NCBI GenBank assembly: GCA_028753945.1
Contig: JAPNXP010000014.1
Coordinates: 1,550,001 to 1,614,000 of the forward strand
DNA from: Hexactinellida sp. DTS-2022
Taxonomy: Eukaryota; Porifera; Hexactinellida
Length of the DNA stretch: 64,000 nt
Direction: 5' to 3'
Both the position numbers and the translations under genes were made by a program. Under the pieces are notes generated by a model, which made no database searches, was not told where the DNA came from, and was given only the letters and a program-made list of their open reading frames with translations. Position 1 is the stretch's first letter. The number at the start of each line of letters is the position of its first letter. This document shows positions 10,099 to 18,927 of the stretch, piece by piece.

Positions 10099-12417
10099 CA
10101 GGGTTGGGTTTTGTCCTGTCCAAAACTGGTTTTGGACGGACAGTGGGAAAAATCCGGTTTTACCGGTAAAAACTGGTAAATACTGGTCAATACTAGCTAT
10201 ATCCTTGAATAATAAGAAAACATATAAAACTAAGATATATTATTTCGATTTGGTTATATACTATTGACACTAGTTTACAATGGAACAGTAAAGTAATCAT
10301 AAAATGTGTGGTTTCACCGGGCTTCAACCAATTAAATACTAATTAGTACTAAAGTATTCGTACATATGTACTTTATAAGGGGGGGATAATTACCAAAGCA
10401 TTTGTGATATTATATAATTTGAATACTATCGTGCAGATTTGTATAACTCACTTACTTAAATTAACCAATTTGAAATGGCACAAGGAGGAAGGCCCATTGA
10501 TTCAGTATGGAAATTTTACATCAAAGTTGAAGATGGTGGAAAAATAAGAGCTAAGTGTATAAAATGTAGTGCTATGATCAGTGCAAAGGCTGGAAGGCTT
10601 AGAACTCATCTTGAAAAATGTTCTCAAAGCGAACAACAACATAATTTTCCTAGAGATCTTCCTGAAATTATAATACCGATTAACAGTAGTGATTCAAATA
10701 AGCCACCTGAAAAACGTTTATGTCATAATGTCATCCAGCCGAAGTTGAATGACTTCACAATAAAGACCAACTCTCACCAGAAAGAAATTCTCGACGATCA
10801 AATTGCTCGCTTATTCTATGCGTGTAATCTTCCTTTTAGCCTCGCTGAGAATGACGTATTCAAAAAGACAATTTCTATGCTCAGACCTGGTTATACACCG
10901 CCTACAAGGAAAAGTCTAGCTGGAGGTCTTCTTGACAAGATATTTAATGAAGTAACCACCATGACTGCTTCAGCTCTGGAAGGCACGGATGTACTCTAGT
11001 ACAGGATGGGTGGAGTGACATACACAACTCCCCTGTAATTGCCCATTGTGTACATACAGGAGAAAGATCTTATTTTCTGAATTCTGTTGACACTGGATCA
11101 AACAAGAAAACTGCTACCTATTGTACTTCTTTAGCTATCGATAAATTTGGGTGTAAAGTTGTTGCTGTCGTTACTGACAATGAACCCAAAATGCAGTCAA
11201 TGCGCTCCAAGTTGAAATTACTTGATAGCTCACTTTCAGTATACGGCTGTGCTTCTCATTTATTGAACCTGTTGGGGAAGGATATCACCCCTTCGCAAAT
11301 TATTTCTCGTATTACAGAGATAAATAAATATTTTCGCAATCATCACAATCCTGGATCCCTCCTATCTGCACAAAAAGGATCTCTTAAGCCTCAATTACCA
11401 GTTGTGACACGGTGGAATAGTCAATTGGAGTGTATCAAGACATACCTAACAAATAGGCCTTTCCTTTTGAACATTCTGGCACAACATGAAGATGTTATCG
11501 ACTTGTCAATTGTAAACCTAATAAACAACGTTGGCCTTTATCGTGAGGCTAAAAATCTTTATGACCAACTTAAACCGATTTCAATATCTTTGGACAGGTT
11601 ACAAGGAGAAAAGTCTAATATTGCAGACTCTTGCGAAGAATGGATGAAATTACTCCAGTTAGACGAGCTGAAATGTCATCAAAGCAAAATTCAGCAACGA
11701 TTCAAACAAGCAATTACACCTACTCACTTACTAGCCAACATGGTCAATCCAAAGTACATGGGACAGAGGCTTTCATGTGAACAACAGGAAGAAGCGAGGG
11801 GTTTGCTTATTCTACTAAATGCTTCTCTTTTGCCGCAACTTTATCAATTTCAGGCAAAGGCAGCACCATTTCCCGCATCTATATTTGAATGTACAGATGC
11901 ATTAGATCCGGTAACGTGGTGGAAGACCATTAAAACATCGAAAAACTTAGTAGCTCATGAGCTTTGCGATATAGCTATCAATTTATTAATCTTACCGTCA
12001 AGTTCAGCAAGTATTGAAAGGATTTTCTCGAATTTTGGTTTAATTCAAACCCAACTAAGGAACAGATTGGGAATCGACAAAACCAGCAAATTAGTAGCTT
12101 GTTACAGAGAATTGAGAGGACGTCAAGAATTAGATTGGTAACAAGAATAAAGGTTAATTAAACATCAATTTACTGTCATATTTTTCATCTACATATATCA
12201 TTTCAACTAGTATTTATTCAGCATATTTATTATATACATATATACAAGTTACAACTTATTAAATATACAAGTAATATGCACGACTCAGCACGAATATAAC
12301 AATTAGGTATTGACCAGTTTTGACCAGTTTTGTCCAGTCAGGAGGTTTTGGACAGGACGGTTTTTACCGGTTTTACCACTATGGTTTTTACCACATGGAC
12401 AAAACCTGCCAACCCTG
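10099..12417 (+). mobile_element. hAT DNA transposon, nearly complete
   Basis: The ends are CAGGGTTGGGTTTTGTCC at the left and, inverted, CAGGGTTGGCAGGTTTTGTC at the right; both continue into subterminal GGTTTTACCGGT-like motifs. The flanking 8-mers ATTTTTCC (10091-10098) and ATTTTTCG (12418-12425) match at seven of eight positions, the hAT duplication size. A single transposase gene fills the interior. With matching ends, duplication and an almost open ORF, this is among the younger autonomous-type insertions in the window. Confidence 0.93.
10475..12141 (+). CDS. hAT transposase with BED zinc finger (one frameshift)
   Basis: Residues 1-50 form a BED finger (VWKFYIKVEDGGKIRAKCIK region, with C28, C31, H45, C49). 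The first frame ends at 10999; the protein continues one frame over from about 10990 with VQDGWSDIHN, then AVVTDNEPKMQ (catalytic Asp region of hAT enzymes), VVTRWNSQLECI, and a C-terminal hAT dimerisation segment LLILPSSSASIERIFS followed by LRNRLGIDK. One missing base near 10990 accounts for the break; the rest is open to the stop at 12139-12141. The enzyme would bind the CAGGG ends and cut and paste the element. It may be a recent pseudogene or a sequencing error. Some smaller MITEs here share CAGGGTTGG ends and might have been mobilised by a related enzyme. Confidence 0.9.
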
Positions 12418-12425
12418 ATTTTTCG

Positions 12426-13262
12426 CATATGTACGCAAATTGATCGTCCCGAAATTACGTATGTCGTAAATAGTCAAATTTAACAATGTGAAATTTAATG
12501 ATTACGTCATCCTGCGATAATGAGTAAGCATGGTGACAATCTGGTGTAAGTTGACCGTGTAACCAACGTGTCCGCATCACTAATGTACATGTTCTATGAA
12601 ATTTTCAGATTTTTATTTCTTAGTGGGCGCGAAATATGTGCGATTAAGTTACTTTTCATGCCTCTCAAAATTTGACAATGACTTCATAACTTTATGAGGT
12701 ATGAAAATTTTCTGATGGAAACCTCAACTTGTTAGCGGGGGCCAAAAGTTACCCCTATATACGTGCATACACACATACAGGTTTGTGTTTTAATAGTATA
12801 GATTGATAGATAGATTATAATATGTCTATTTACACAATCTAGCAAGGTTATCTCCCACCTGCAAAGTTTGCCAAACAAGAATAATCTAATTCCTGAATTT
12901 GTTGGGGTTACAGTGTCCACTCATTGTAGTTCTAAATCTACCTCTGCCAAATTTGCTTATTTAACTATTTATCAGAAATTTTTTTAATGAAGTTACATTC
13001 TCGACAAATATAGTGGTTAGTGTTGGCAATTGGCAATTGCCATCAGGAAATTCATCAGAGTACTATGGTATCTAAGCCACTAATGACTAATGAGACAATT
13101 AATTTATACATATAATCCAGGGTTGTATTTAGCCACCGGAGTTAAATGTCGGTGGATCCTTTTGCTGCTAACAAATTTTATCTGTCAAGATACCTTAACA
13201 TACTTGATAACAAACCAATTTGTTTCCATTTAAGCAACAAATTCAATAAAATAAAGGATTAA
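12426..13262. other. Non-coding interval
   Basis: AT-rich sequence with no credible gene or complete element between the hAT transposon and the Ginger-like element. A short CCAGGGTTGTATTTAGCC stretch near 13119 hints at an old hAT-type end, without a visible partner. Confidence 0.5.
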
Positions 13263-13281
13263 TGTTGCAGTGTATTAGAAA

Positions 13282-13847
13282 CAGGGTTGGGTTCAAGTAC
13301 ATTTGAAAGTACTTAAGTACAAGTACTACTACTTTTCAGATATTCAAGTACAATACAAGTACAAGTACAGGTAAACTTAAAGTACTTAAGTACAAGTACA
13401 AGTACAATGAAAAAATTAGGAAAATACTTAAGTACAAGTACAAGTACTTTCCAAGCTCTTATGATAAATCTCTCGTACTAATAGTAGAAATTGCTAAATA
13501 CATAGTTTATATAGTATCATCCAAATCTATTTAATTGATTTAGCAGTTGTCCTTGACACGAACACAATTCCTAATATACTAAGTATTAAGTAACACTACT
13601 TTATTTGAGATGGGATTTGAGGAACATCAATGATGTGTGTTGGAAATATATTGAATGATAAAAAAAGTCACGAGTAACAAGTACTCAAGTACAAGTGCAA
13701 GTACTTTAGAAAAATGAGGAAAGTAATTAAGTACAAGTACAAGTACAACGGAAAAATGGTGAAAGTACTTCAGTACAAGTACAAGTACTCAGAAAATGTA
13801 CTTAATTACAGAAGTACTTAAGTAAACTGTACTTGAACCCAACCCTG
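13282..13847. mobile_element. hAT MITE built of AAGTAC repeats
   Basis: 566 bp with termini CAGGGTTGGGTTCAAGTACA and its inverted partner, flanked by perfect 8-bp duplications ATTAGAAA (13274-13281, 13848-13855). The body is largely AAGTACTTAAGTAC-type repeats. It splits the left terminal repeat of the Ginger-like transposon, so it is younger than that element. Confidence 0.95.
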
Positions 13848-13855
13848 ATTAGAAA

Positions 13856-14000
13856 CTTCTGTGTGTTCACGAACACACATGTGTATTCGCGAACACACAT
13901 GTGTATTCGCGAACACACAATATTTGCTGTGTGTTCACGAACACACAGTTTCAAACTTTGTGTGTTCACGAATACACAATATTATTGTGTGTATTGGAGT
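13856..14000. repeat. Subterminal palindromic repeats of the Ginger-like element, left
   Basis: Several copies of GTGTTCGCGAACACAC-like palindromes follow one another; the inverted counterpart is at 17785-17875. They are probably integrase binding or cruciform-forming sites of the transposon ends; that role is inferred from position only. Confidence 0.7.
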
Positions 14001-14180
14001 TTTTCTTGATTATGGGAGCACAAAAAAACCCCTTTGATCAGCAATAACATTACCTCAGGGAACTAATTTTATCAGCTGTAAACAGATTATAATAGGCAAA
14101 AACAGAGTACACCTATAATATTGCAAAAATTATATAAGGAATAAAGTATACAAACTAACAATCAGTCAAGTAAACTTCTA

Positions 14181-16273
14181 ATGGCGAAACAGGAGTTTCT
14201 TGACACAATCCGGTCTTTTCCAATGACGAACAGATCAGAGCTGTTTTCATCTGGTGACATTATGGAGAAGATCAACATTATGTCAGGTCCTAAACCGACA
14301 GAACATTCCTCTCTATTGCGTTGGCAAAGACTCCAAGCAAGGTTTAAGATCTTAACTTATCAGAGTGTAAGAGTACTGTATCTTAGGAATAAGGAGAGCG
14401 ATATGCCAGATAAGCGAGTACTCTCGGTTGAGGAATTGTTTTATGTCATTCAGAGGATTCACTTACAGTTGAATCATGTAAGAAGGATTGGCTTCTATAA
14501 GCGTATATCTCAGGAGTACCACGGTATCACTGAAAAAGCCTGCAAAATCTATTTGCAAGGGTGTGAAGAGTGTCACCTCAGGAAGGCTAGAAAGAGCATT
14601 AAGTCTTTAGTCGTGAAACCTATCTCTTCCACAAGATTCCTTTCCCGATATCAAGTGGATCTTATTGACTTCAGGGATATGTCACAAGAGCACAACATGT
14701 CAGAGTCTGGAGTTCCATACCGGTGGCTTCTGGTTTATCAAGACCACTTCACTAAATTTATACGTCTTCGTCCCCTGAAACATAAGTCTGCGGAGGAGGT
14801 ATCTGAGGTCTTAGAAGATTTCTTTTGTGAACTCGGCCCTCCTCATAACCTTCAAAGCGACAATGGAGGTGAGTTCAAAAACAAATCCTATTCTCTCTCC
14901 TGAACAAAAACTGGCCGGATACCAAGATTGTCCATGGAAAGCCTCGGCACCCTGAAAGTCAAGGTTCGGTAGAGCGCGCTAATCGTGACCTGAAAAATGC
15001 TCTGGCTTCGAAGATGAGAGACAATTCGAATGACTTAGGATGGGTGAAGTATGTCAGACGTCTTCAAATAGAAAAGAACACCACCTTTCATTCGACGATA
15101 GGGATGACTCCGTATGAAGCCCTCTACAATCGAAAGCCATCTTTTGGTCTCTCAGATTTGGGAATTCCCATTGAGTTAGCATCTGAAATTCACGAGGAGG
15201 AAGATCTGGAACGAATTATAGATGAAATCAACCATCCACCTAACTCTGAGTGTTCTTCCATCGATCACTTGAATATCAACACGCGTTTTGACATTCTTGA
15301 TAATGAATTCACTCAACCCAATGTGTACAACGTAATCGATGAGGTTGAATTGCCATTTGAGAGTGCACGCGTACAAAAGGAGAACTTCATACAAGATTCC
15401 TATTTAGATGAAATCTCGCAGCCACTGCCGGAAGGAACTCGTATCTTCTCTCCTTCCACTTCCGCTTCTTCATCAAGCAATAATCTTGACTGTGTTGTCT
15501 GCAATCTTCAGACAAGTGGTGTACATAAATGTCCTGAATGTTGTTGCCCAATTCACTTGATATGTGGTCGTATAGACGTGTCGCATGACCACGTTGGTTA
15601 TAGGTTCGAGGTGTTGAAACTTCTTGGCAAAGGAAGCTTTGGACAGGTGATGAAGGTGTACGACCACAAGACTCAGACTCATATGGCGCTTAAAATGGTT
15701 CGAAATGAGAAGCGTTTCCACAGACAGGCTCAAGAGGAGATCCGGATCCTTGACCACGGATCCAGTGTGTGGTGTCCCAAGTGCGACATTGAGGCAAATA
15801 GGGATCAACGTGAATCGATGAGGAGGGGCATCAAGAGAAAGCAGGAGCAACTCCACCAACGCATGGTGAATTCTGCTGCTAAAAGATTTGAGCCTGCACA
15901 TGTTGGAGATAATGTCATCGTTCCCATCGAAAGGCCAGATCAGATGAATTCCTTAGGGCAACAGAATATGTTAGGAGTGGTATCTAGCATTTCTGATGAT
16001 CATTACACAATAGGAACTAAATCCGGAACCCTTAAGAGCAGCTACACGAGAAACCAATTTGATTTGTGTTCTTCTAACAGGTTTCTTCAAACATCGGATA
16101 TTCCAGAATCCACTGTTACACAAACATGTGCAATGAGGAGTGCCTCTTTAGGAATACAAGAAGGTTCTTTCTGTAGGTGTACCAACTGCAAAACCAACCG
16201 ATGTCCGTGTAGAAAATCGTTCCGCACTTGTAACACCAAGTGCCATCTTGGAAAGAAGTGTTTTAATAAGTAG
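14181..16273 (+). CDS. Ginger-like transposon integrase (KRBA2/SCAND3-type) with a kinase fragment
   Basis: The start is ATG at 14181. An HHCC zinc domain (HLQLNH...CEECHLRK) precedes the integrase core: YQVDLIDF (Asp 1), LQSDNGGEF (Asp 2), and [15 protein letters not shown] (Glu). A one-base shift near 14880 breaks the frame just after the second Asp, and reading continues one frame over to 16273. Behind the core come a C-x2-C...[13 protein letters not shown] zinc-binding segment, a DYRK kinase fragment (15584-15760), WCPKC resuming the zinc segment, then [16 protein letters not shown] and a Cys-rich tail ([15 protein letters not shown]). The layout after the core is typical of the integrases related to vertebrate KRBA2 and SCAND3. 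No RT or gag is linked to it. With one frameshift it is probably a recently dead copy. Confidence 0.88.
15584..15760 (+). other. Captured DYRK-family kinase N-lobe fragment, in frame
   Basis: About 55 codons inside the integrase zinc segment encode [20 protein letters not shown], then [14 protein letters not shown] and EEIRIL: the start of a DYRK kinase domain with the glycine-rich loop GKGSFGQV, the ATP-binding Lys in ALKMV and the alpha-C Glu region. The downstream catalytic loop and DFG are absent, so it cannot be an active kinase. An 8-bp direct repeat TGACCACG lies at 15586-15593 and 15751-15758; its spacing is 165 bp, exactly 55 codons, so the host frame is kept. The match to DYRK2/3/4-type sequence comes from recognition, not from a search. 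Confidence 0.88.
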
Positions 16274-17321
16274 TCTCAGATATAACCTCTAATTAGTATT
16301 CGTTTACAGATTAGTTTCGTTGCCTAACTAAATTAAACTTTGGTTCCAATCTTTACTTGGGGATTTATTTACAAACATTTTATCAAATTATTTGCTCAAT
16401 TCTAAGTCTAAATTTTAGAATTAGTTCAAGATGTTTTCGTTAAAAATTCTTAATTTCAAAATACTCGGGGATTCTTAGGAGATTTCTTTGATCTAATTAA
16501 TTTCTATTTTAATCTCAAACTATTAATAATTGAATTTGTCAAGCAAAATATTAATTAAAAGCCATTTTGTTTTATACGGAAATAATTTTAATACTCCCTT
16601 CTCTTACCGCTAACCTAGTTAGGATCTGTGGTACATAAATAGAACGGTCATATACATATAGGCTAGCTCCAACTAAAGATTACGGGAATGATTCTCGTAA
16701 AATAATAGGCCTGTCTATGGGACCTTTGAACGTTGAGTAATGCTATCAAGGGGGATAAGGACTACTCATGTGGCAGACCATCCATATTGTTACAAAACGG
16801 CAAAATCGTGACACAAGGAAGGGTGTGTATAAATTTCGGTCATTTGAACGGCCCTAAAGCAGTCACCAGTACATAACGACAATTTTAGGCCAGTCATAAC
16901 TAAGAGGTTCCATAGTATTTAAATAAAATATTGTATTTAAACATATTCAGTACAAAATATAAGAACACGCGTAGCGCGGACGAGCAGCTTGTTTTATAAA
17001 ATGACAACCCCCCTTTAAATAATTCCTGCATCCGCCCCTGCGGCTATACTAGAGTACGGATATAAATAGATTAGTAGGGCCACTGCTCAAGAAAGACATA
17101 TAATTTAAAAAGGAACATGCAAGAAATACCGCGTCCCGAGTGTAAGTTGTAAGGACGAGCGAAGCGGACGAGCAGGTTGTTATAATTTAAGTAGCTATCG
17201 TCAATTCTAATAAAAGTGGTCCTAATATATATTCCCTTACCATACCTAAGTCCGAGTCACGACTCACAAGAGCCCTGTCAATCCCCATTCCTAATACACG
17301 AGTACAAAGGCGCCCACAGAC
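16274..17321. other. Non-coding 3' part of the Ginger-like element
   Basis: No gene is visible between the integrase stop and the second MITE. The piece at about 17055-17185 is a diverged relative of 9705-9850 (shared ATATAAATAGA, AAAAGGAACATGC and GACGAGC-AG-TTGT), so another old insertion probably lies here. The rest shows no repeat structure that I can identify. Confidence 0.45.
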
Positions 17322-17666
17322 CATACCTGCCAACCTATTTGAGACATATCCCTGTACGAGGCTCCTATTTCCCCCTGTACATTGGCCAAAATCCCTGTCA
17401 CCCAAAAAATCTTTCTTGTAAAGGTGAAAATATTAGTTTATATAGACTGTACAGGGAATCCCTGTATGCTCGAATAGGAACAGATTATTTACACAAAACA
17501 AAATGCTATATTTAGATGGTGTAGACATGTTTAGGTATTAATAGACTCACAATCAATAATTTTTCCATAGCTAAAAATCCCTGTATAAATTTAAAAATCC
17601 CTGTACGGTCCAGCCAAAATGGGTCCCTGTACTGTACAGGGAATCCCTGTACGGTTGGCAGGTATG
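17322..17666. mobile_element. hAT-like MITE with CCCTGTAC motifs
   Basis: 345 bp with ends CATACCTGCCAACC and its inverted partner GGTTGGCAGGTATG. It is flanked by ACAGAC on both sides (17316-17321, 17667-17672), a 6-bp direct repeat that is shorter than the usual 8 for hAT. The body carries many ATCCCTGTAC motifs in both orientations, dense near the right end. Confidence 0.85.
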
Positions 17667-17784
17667 ACAGACCCCAAAAAAAGTTACGGACATTGTTGTA
17701 AGGAAATATTTACAAAAATTATGATGCCATATGATTGCATAACTAATGAATATAAATTAACCATAATCAAGCAAAACTCCAATA

Positions 17785-17875
17785 CACACAATAATATTGT
17801 GTATTCGTGAACACACAGCAAATATTGTGTGTTCGCGAATACACATGTGTGTTCGTGAACACACAGAAGTTTCTA
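17785..17875. repeat. Subterminal palindromic repeats of the Ginger-like element, right
   Basis: Inverted counterpart of 13856-14000, with GTGTTCGTGAACACAC-like palindromes next to the right terminus at 17888. Confidence 0.7.
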
Positions 17876-18033
17876 ATACACTGCAACATTAATACCATAC
17901 AATGATACATACTTTGATGTCAAGTTAACTCTAATATTAGTGTTCCAAAGAGATTTTCAATTACTGGCAAGTTTTCACACCCGTTATTAACTTTAACACC
18001 TAGTTTGTATATGTATACAGAGTTCTCGTTTCA

Positions 18034-18927
18034 ATGAAATCTGCTTTATCATTACAAAAATGTTCGTTACATACAAAATTTCTTCGGAATTTCACGATTT
18101 CCTCGAACAGTTCTCATAAATTATTCGATAATCGCGTCAAACGAATACAACGGGCCCGAGCATTCAATTTACCGAATCGTAAGACCTATGACTACATCCG
18201 CGAATCTACTGCCGCGAATTTAGCAGACAGACTGTTCGATATAAATAAAGAATTCGATTTCGGTTTGGAAATTGGTTGTGCTAGGGGAGACCTTCTCACC
18301 TCGTTGATTGACTCGGATAAAATACGAGTCCTATCACAAATGGATAACTGTATAGGAGCGCTAGTTAACCCAAATGCACAGTACCCTCTGTTAATGGACT
18401 ATAGTCCGGCAATTCTGAAGAAAGGATCGTTTGATATCGCAATTGCTAACCTCAGTCTCCATTGGATTAATGATTTGGAAGATTTCTTTTGTGGAATATG
18501 TAATTTGCTAAAAGCAGATTCTCCTTTTATCCTTTCAATGTTTGGTGAATTTACGCTTTGCGAACTCGCGGCTTCCCTTAGGGACGCTGAAATGCGAATT
18601 TTAGGCGGGTTTTCTCCTCGTGTATCCCCCTTTATAAAACTATCAGATTTAGCTAGCCTATTCAACGTAGCGGGTTTTCAGCTTATAACTGTGGACCAAG
18701 ACTACATGACGGTTAGTTACCCGGGAATGCTAGAGCTAATGCAAGACCTGGGTAGGATGGGAGAATCCAACTGCACTTCTGGGAGGAAATCCCATATCCG
18801 TAGAGACGTTATTCGGCTAGCAGAGGAGGAGTACAGGAGAAGATACGGTGAGAGGGAGGGATCTGTGTCTGCTACTTTTGAGATTATTTATGGGATAGGA
18901 TGGACTCGTAGTAATGTGTCTGATTAA
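18034..18927 (+). CDS. NDUFAF5: NDUFAF5, complex I assembly arginine hydroxylase / methyltransferase-like
   Basis: An intact, intronless 297-residue ORF. The N-terminus is basic and Ser-rich without acidic residues (residues 1-30), as in mitochondrial presequences. Then come LFDNRVKRIQR, FDYxxE-like TYDYIRE, the SAM-binding motif I LEIGCARGD (78-86; the family usually has GCGRG), the signature LSLHWINDL (140-148), GGFSPRVSPF (191-200), VSYPGMLELMQDLGRMGESN (227-246) and a closing IIYGIGW. NDUFAF5 acts in the mitochondrial matrix on the NDUFS7 subunit early in complex I assembly. The length is a little below the human protein (345). It lies 145 bp after the Ginger-like transposon and is free of stops, so it is probably a functional host gene, perhaps a retrocopy since no intron is seen. 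Confidence 0.95.
   Translation: MKSALSLQKCSLHTKFLRNFTISSNSSHKLFDNRVKRIQRARAFNLPNRKTYDYIRESTAANLADRLFDINKEFDFGLEIGCARGDLLTSLIDSDKIRVLSQMDNCIGALVNPNAQYPLLMDYSPAILKKGSFDIAIANLSLHWINDLEDFFCGICNLLKADSPFILSMFGEFTLCELAASLRDAEMRILGGFSPRVSPFIKLSDLASLFNVAGFQLITVDQDYMTVSYPGMLELMQDLGRMGESNCTSGRKSHIRRDVIRLAEEEYRRRYGEREGSVSATFEIIYGIGWTRSNVSD

Follow-up and report, generated by a model that had tools for sequence, protein, structure and literature searches.

A DYRK2/3-type kinase exon piece in frame inside a Ginger-like integrase gene of a hexactinellid sponge, probably left by break repair

In the genome of Hexactinellida sp. DTS-2022, one copy of a Ginger-like DNA transposon carries an internal piece of a DYRK2/3-type kinase exon, in frame, within its integrase gene. 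With a probability of about 0.8, this insert is a class-2 templated insertion, that is, a kinase-exon patch used in the end-joining repair of a double-strand break, and not a host gene fragment captured and carried by the transposon. An exact donor that survives elsewhere, blunt junctions, the loss of 21 bp at the insertion site, a single inserted copy found and the absence of the insert from readable relatives are all observed directly. The window, which is the whole stretch of DNA analysed, has 64,000 nucleotides (contig JAPNXP010000014.1, positions 1,550,001 to 1,614,000 of the forward strand). Its features are listed in Table 1.

Table 1. Features of the Ginger-like element and its kinase-exon insert, in window coordinates
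Feature	Position	Strand	Description
Ginger-like DNA transposon copy	13263..17888	+	ends TGTTGCAGTG...CACTGCAACA; TTAA at 13259-13262 and 17889-17892
Small transposon in 5' TIR	13282..13847		ends CAGGGTTGGGTTCAAG...CTTGAACCCAACCCTG; 8-bp duplication ATTAGAAA at 13274-13281 and 13848-13855
Integrase open frame 1	14145..14903	+	252 aa stop to stop; weak H2C2 match, most of rve core
Integrase open frame 2	14873..16273	+	466 aa stop to stop; end of core, insert-split SCAND3-like zinc segment, Cys-rich tail
Left junction	15571..15572	+	blunt, no microhomology; 21 bp of other copies absent here
DYRK2/3-type kinase exon copy (internal part)	15572..15757	+	100% identity to donor; DYRK2 top match in PDB
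Right junction	15757..15758	+	blunt, no microhomology
Probable second small transposon, 3' part	17322..17666		CATACCTGCCAACC...GGTTGGCAGGTATG (also given CATACCTGCC...GGCAGGTATG); ACAGAC on both sides

The insert has 186 bp (62 codons, 15572-15757), and all 186 bases are identical to C7:2220766-2220951 on a different contig (nucleotide comparison, E 2.8e-91), a match that chance would by no means produce. A sequence-only reading of this DNA had proposed a DYRK-type kinase start in frame inside a Ginger-like integrase. That proposal holds, and the donor exon it presupposed is the one on C7; its extent of about 55 codons from 15584 has to be corrected to the coordinates given here. The donor segment is an internal part of a single exon and lies within an open frame of 355 codons (Pfam Pkinase 1e-25). 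The kinase exon extends past the segment on both sides, the kinase domain resumes in a later exon, and the gene is still in place at its own locus. The insert covers only the first 53 of the 263 positions of the kinase profile. In a PDB search it matched DYRK2 (8e-28) and DYRK3 (1.7e-25) better than DYRK1B (1e-13), DYRK1A (1e-11) or CLK1 (8e-9), as expected of a DYRK class II origin, and the whole donor exon matched DYRK2 with an E value of 4e-106. The earlier assignment of the segment to DYRK was right.

A nucleotide search of the genome gave 14 matches (9/9 candidates scored), and the insert part was covered by just two places, the window and the donor. When the insert was searched as protein, five matches were found: the window and the donor (100%), a place on C4 (62%) and two weaker ones (32% and 43%). 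A 4-kb query from the donor gene, which covered the insert-bearing exon and left out the gene's later exon, revealed no further exon copies among the best 40 of 4552 candidates. All of its 65 matches except the donor and the window map downstream of the exon and look like repeats.

The recipient is a Ginger-like element; terminal inverted repeats (TIRs) and a 4-bp duplication were found, as its suggested Ginger type would have it. Of the copies found, those on C18 and C4 are the closest; each measures 3612 bp and contains an open frame of 654 codons (stop to stop). In the C18 copy the TIR is about 142 bp with one mismatch and the duplication is TAAA; in the C4 copy 8 bases match between the flanks, which makes the length of the duplication ambiguous. 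In the description of Ginger2 (PMC2836005), the ends are TGTNR, the TIRs 50-180 bp and the duplications 4 bp, with AT-rich targets and a preference for RTATAY; most Ginger1 proteins are described there as having extra C-terminal domains. The window element resembles Ginger2 in its gypsy-integrase-like transposase, its TGTNR-type ends (TGTTG/TGTTA), a TIR within the 50-180 bp range (about 142 bp in C18) and 4-bp AT-rich duplications (TTAA in the window, TAAA in C18). It differs in that its target is ATTAAT, and neither duplication fits RTATAY exactly. It also differs from Ginger2 in having a SCAND3-like zinc segment and a Cys-rich tail. Only the window copy is known to carry the kinase piece. 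Judged from sequence, the element may be named Ginger-like, with ends, TIR and duplication length that match those of Ginger2.

The integrase of the window copy (14145-16273) exists as two overlapping open frames, and the reading frame is broken where they meet. Its Gypsy-like rve core is recognised with an E value of 2e-7 (4e-7 in C18), scores that lie 1.0 and 1.8 bits, respectively, under the Pfam cut-off. The H2C2 zinc finger (19.7 bits and 9e-4 in C18, 17.3 bits in the window) is below its cut-off of 25.5 in both. The SCAND3-like zinc segment of the C18 protein is above the Pfam cut-off (4e-9). The insert lies in frame within the corresponding segment of the window copy, between the WCPKC side and the preceding part, and separates the last Cys pair from the remainder; compared with 36.6 bits for the intact C18 copy, the insert-split segment of the window reaches 17.5 bits. 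Downstream of the insert, the frame is open as far as the Cys-rich tail. Most likely the insert does nothing, judged from the sequence, since the last zinc Cys pair is split off and the integrase frame is broken upstream. The roles proposed in the sequence-only reading, as a decoy of the kinase or as a source of small RNAs, are hypothetical.

Other copies of the element preserve the empty site. The nucleotide search showed seven other places of the element. Five of them have both flanks (C18, C4, C6, C5, and C17), one only the left flank (C2), and one only the right (C14). The flanks are 20-21 bases apart in all five two-flank places; in four of these the empty site is the 21 bases GAAGCTGGAGAAGAGGGATAT, and in C5 it is one base short. 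The net gain at the site is therefore 165 bp, with 186 bp in and 21 bp of the element gone. At the protein level, an integrase search gave 163 matches (best 150 of 552 candidates scored), and 30 loci including the window were fetched. The zinc pattern could not be read in 15 of the 29 other loci; in the 14 readable ones the loop of the zinc segment has 12-13 residues, as against 68 in the window, and a stricter pattern recovered 13 of the 14. With C18 and C4 common to both sets, the two-flank places and the readable loci make up 17 places, and the insert is missing from all of them. Insert-free copies of the transposon exist, and no second insert-bearing copy was found in these searches. The segment might have been an ancestral domain common to related integrases, which would have refuted the earlier reading; with 17 readable places in this genome that lack it, this explanation is rejected and has a negligible probability.

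As a separate observation, many of the 163 integrase matches (best 150 of 552 candidates scored) have long open frames, and this genome seems to contain a large number of Ginger-like elements, some of them active until recently.

At the left edge of the insert, recipient CGT is followed directly by insert ATAGACG, and at the right edge, insert TGACCAC is followed by recipient GGATCC. There is no junction microhomology and there are no added bases; no base is common to donor and recipient at either edge. No target duplication or poly-A was found at the insert edges. The sequence-only reading had described an 8-bp direct repeat that brackets 165 bp, and had suggested microhomology or target duplication at it. 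The repeat, TGACCACG, is indeed present and starts at 15586 and 15751, but it does not bracket the insert: the first copy consists entirely of donor exon sequence, and the second joins the final 7 insert bases to one G of the recipient. Both suggestions are rejected, because the repeat does not stand at both insert edges. That 165 is the spacing of the repeat as well as the net gain in length looks like a coincidence.

The following course of repair would account for the insert. A double-strand break, or two close cuts, may have occurred in one Ginger-like copy, and 21 bp of coding sequence of the zinc segment would have been lost at the break. A 186-bp piece of the kinase exon would then have been end-joined into the gap as a patch, with the donor left in place. 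The source of the patch may have been DNA, for instance through a meiotic double-cut fragment or polymerase template switching, or else reverse-transcribed RNA; because the donor piece lies within one exon, the two sources look the same.

Class 2 templated sequence insertions are described in human cells by Onozawa and Aplan (PMC5110952) as lacking target-site duplication (TSD) and poly-A, with microdeletion, microhomology and added bases as possible marks. According to the same review, experimental insertions are 73-414 bp long (median 191), and reverse-transcribed RNA is favoured as the source, with polymerase template switching left open. The sponge insert is like these in that an identical distant locus is still present, the target has a small deletion, its 186 bp is near the median of 191, and it has neither TSD nor poly-A. 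It differs in two ways. Microhomology or added bases are often seen (neither is required), whereas here the 21-bp microdeletion is the only mark of non-homologous end joining; and the patch landed in frame inside a transposon open reading frame. Another possible route is known from mouse meiosis. A preprint (PMC12918824) reports that SPO11 double-cut fragments give ectopic inserts of 15-967 bp, with a median of 95 bp in one mutant and 67 bp in another, and that the distance between SPO11 cuts can be as short as about 21 bp. Our case is similar in that a short piece would have been end-joined into a distant site that lost bases; it differs in that the mouse medians are below 186 bp and that the mouse study was made in repair mutants. 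By analogy with these papers, which cover human cells and mutant mice and thus other organisms than the sponge, the 186-bp patch, the 21-bp loss and the blunt joins would fit either the class-2 or the SPO11 route.

The codon phase is not predicted by the repair model and counts against it. All four breakpoints (15572, 15758, and both edges of the donor segment) are at phase zero. By chance, an in-frame insert alone is expected in 1/9 of cases, and all four breakpoints on codon boundaries in 1/81. We offer no explanation of this precision beyond chance and selective noticing.

The same codon boundaries, together with the uninterrupted frame between the insert and the Cys-rich tail, speak for capture by an active Ginger-like element, which would have formed an in-frame chimeric integrase and then transposed to the present site. 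Pack-MULEs and Helitrons are DNA transposons that carry captured pieces of host genes. The window element is similar to them in having a piece of a host exon within a DNA transposon; it differs in that one copy of the insert was found, with no sign of mobilisation. No report of gene capture by Ginger elements was found in the open PMC literature. Genome searches yielded no second insert-bearing copy (for the donor-gene query, among the best 40 of 4552 candidates), so that a piece carried to new sites, the mark of a Pack-TE, was not seen, although a move as a single copy is possible. Host-gene capture in the Pack-MULE or Helitron sense, which the sequence-only reading had favoured, is not borne out by the one inserted copy found. 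The drop of the split zinc segment from 36.6 bits in C18 to 17.5 bits also argues against capture, as does the upstream break in the integrase frame, which may have preceded or followed the insertion.

Capture gains some ground from the age of the insert and from selection on the element. The insert has 0/186 changes relative to the donor, and the 95% upper bound of their divergence is 1.6%. Elsewhere in the element, changes private to the window lineage amount to 48/3388 sites, from which 2.6 changes are expected in 186 bp (P=0.07), part of this divergence predating the copy. A first count with fewer outgroups had given 41/2344 sites and 3.25 expected (P0=0.04). The first count used 4 outgroup loci and the second 17 locus records, some of them overlapping the same place. 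The window differs from both close copies at 102 sites, of which 48 are window-private, 39 have the derived state in the close copies, 13 are mixed and 2 lack an outgroup; only the 48 private sites were counted for the dating, and sites that differ between the two close copies were excluded. Among the private coding changes, 15 are synonymous and 7 non-synonymous (n=22), whereas about 28% would be synonymous if there were no selection (P=1.1e-4). The first outgroup set gave 14 and 7 (n=21), and three of these became mixed when more outgroups were added. The synonymous excess implies that the element lineage was under selection until recently, and that part of the private divergence arose before the arrival of this copy, while the lineage was active. 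The comparison of 0/186 with 2.6 expected thus does not place the insertion after the arrival of the element; it may have come before or after. Taking both sides together, we regard capture as unlikely. Its strongest form, in which an active lineage exchanged seven zinc-segment codons for 62 kinase codons, lived on with a working chimeric integrase and died recently, is very improbable, and nothing requires a working chimeric integrase.

An artefact of assembly or library preparation, with the 186 bp joined in computationally or in vitro, would likewise leave a stretch that agrees 100% with distant sequence. An internal swap of 186 bp with the loss of 21 bp and unchanged flanks would, however, be unusual for a chimeric read or misjoin, and the window contains no N. 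We consider an artefact improbable.

On this reading the insert is a clean case of a kind of repair scar that is already known. It is a natural example, with blunt junctions and with both donor and empty site identified exactly, of how repair can drop a piece of an exon in frame into a coding sequence. Such in-frame exon patches are a possible first step toward new protein architectures, and they are easily misread as gene capture by a transposon. The exact donor and the codon-boundary precision make this insert a good test case.

Two smaller transposons are nested in the Ginger-like element. The one in the 5' TIR is presumably hAT-like, judged from the shape of its ends and its duplication. 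A 211-bp stretch from its middle has many copies in the genome at 98-100% identity (best 40 of 144 candidates scored), which indicates that this transposon arrived recently and that its family was apparently active recently. The probable second one is missing from the two closest Ginger-like copies (C18 and C4). A 96% relative of the first lies in reverse orientation at about 8047-8390 of L009; it stands between two exons of the kinase gene, and its distance to the donor segment is 3.1 kb. That a member of this family lies near the donor as well as in the window element is probably a coincidence, since the family is abundant (best 40 of 144 candidates scored); possibly the relative near the donor served as a pairing aid. 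Among the neighbours, an open frame of 396 aa (10951-12141) presumably represents the C-terminal region of a transposase of hAT type, which it resembles, and one of 307 aa just downstream of the element (18004-18927) presumably encodes an NDUFAF5-type methyltransferase, which it resembles.
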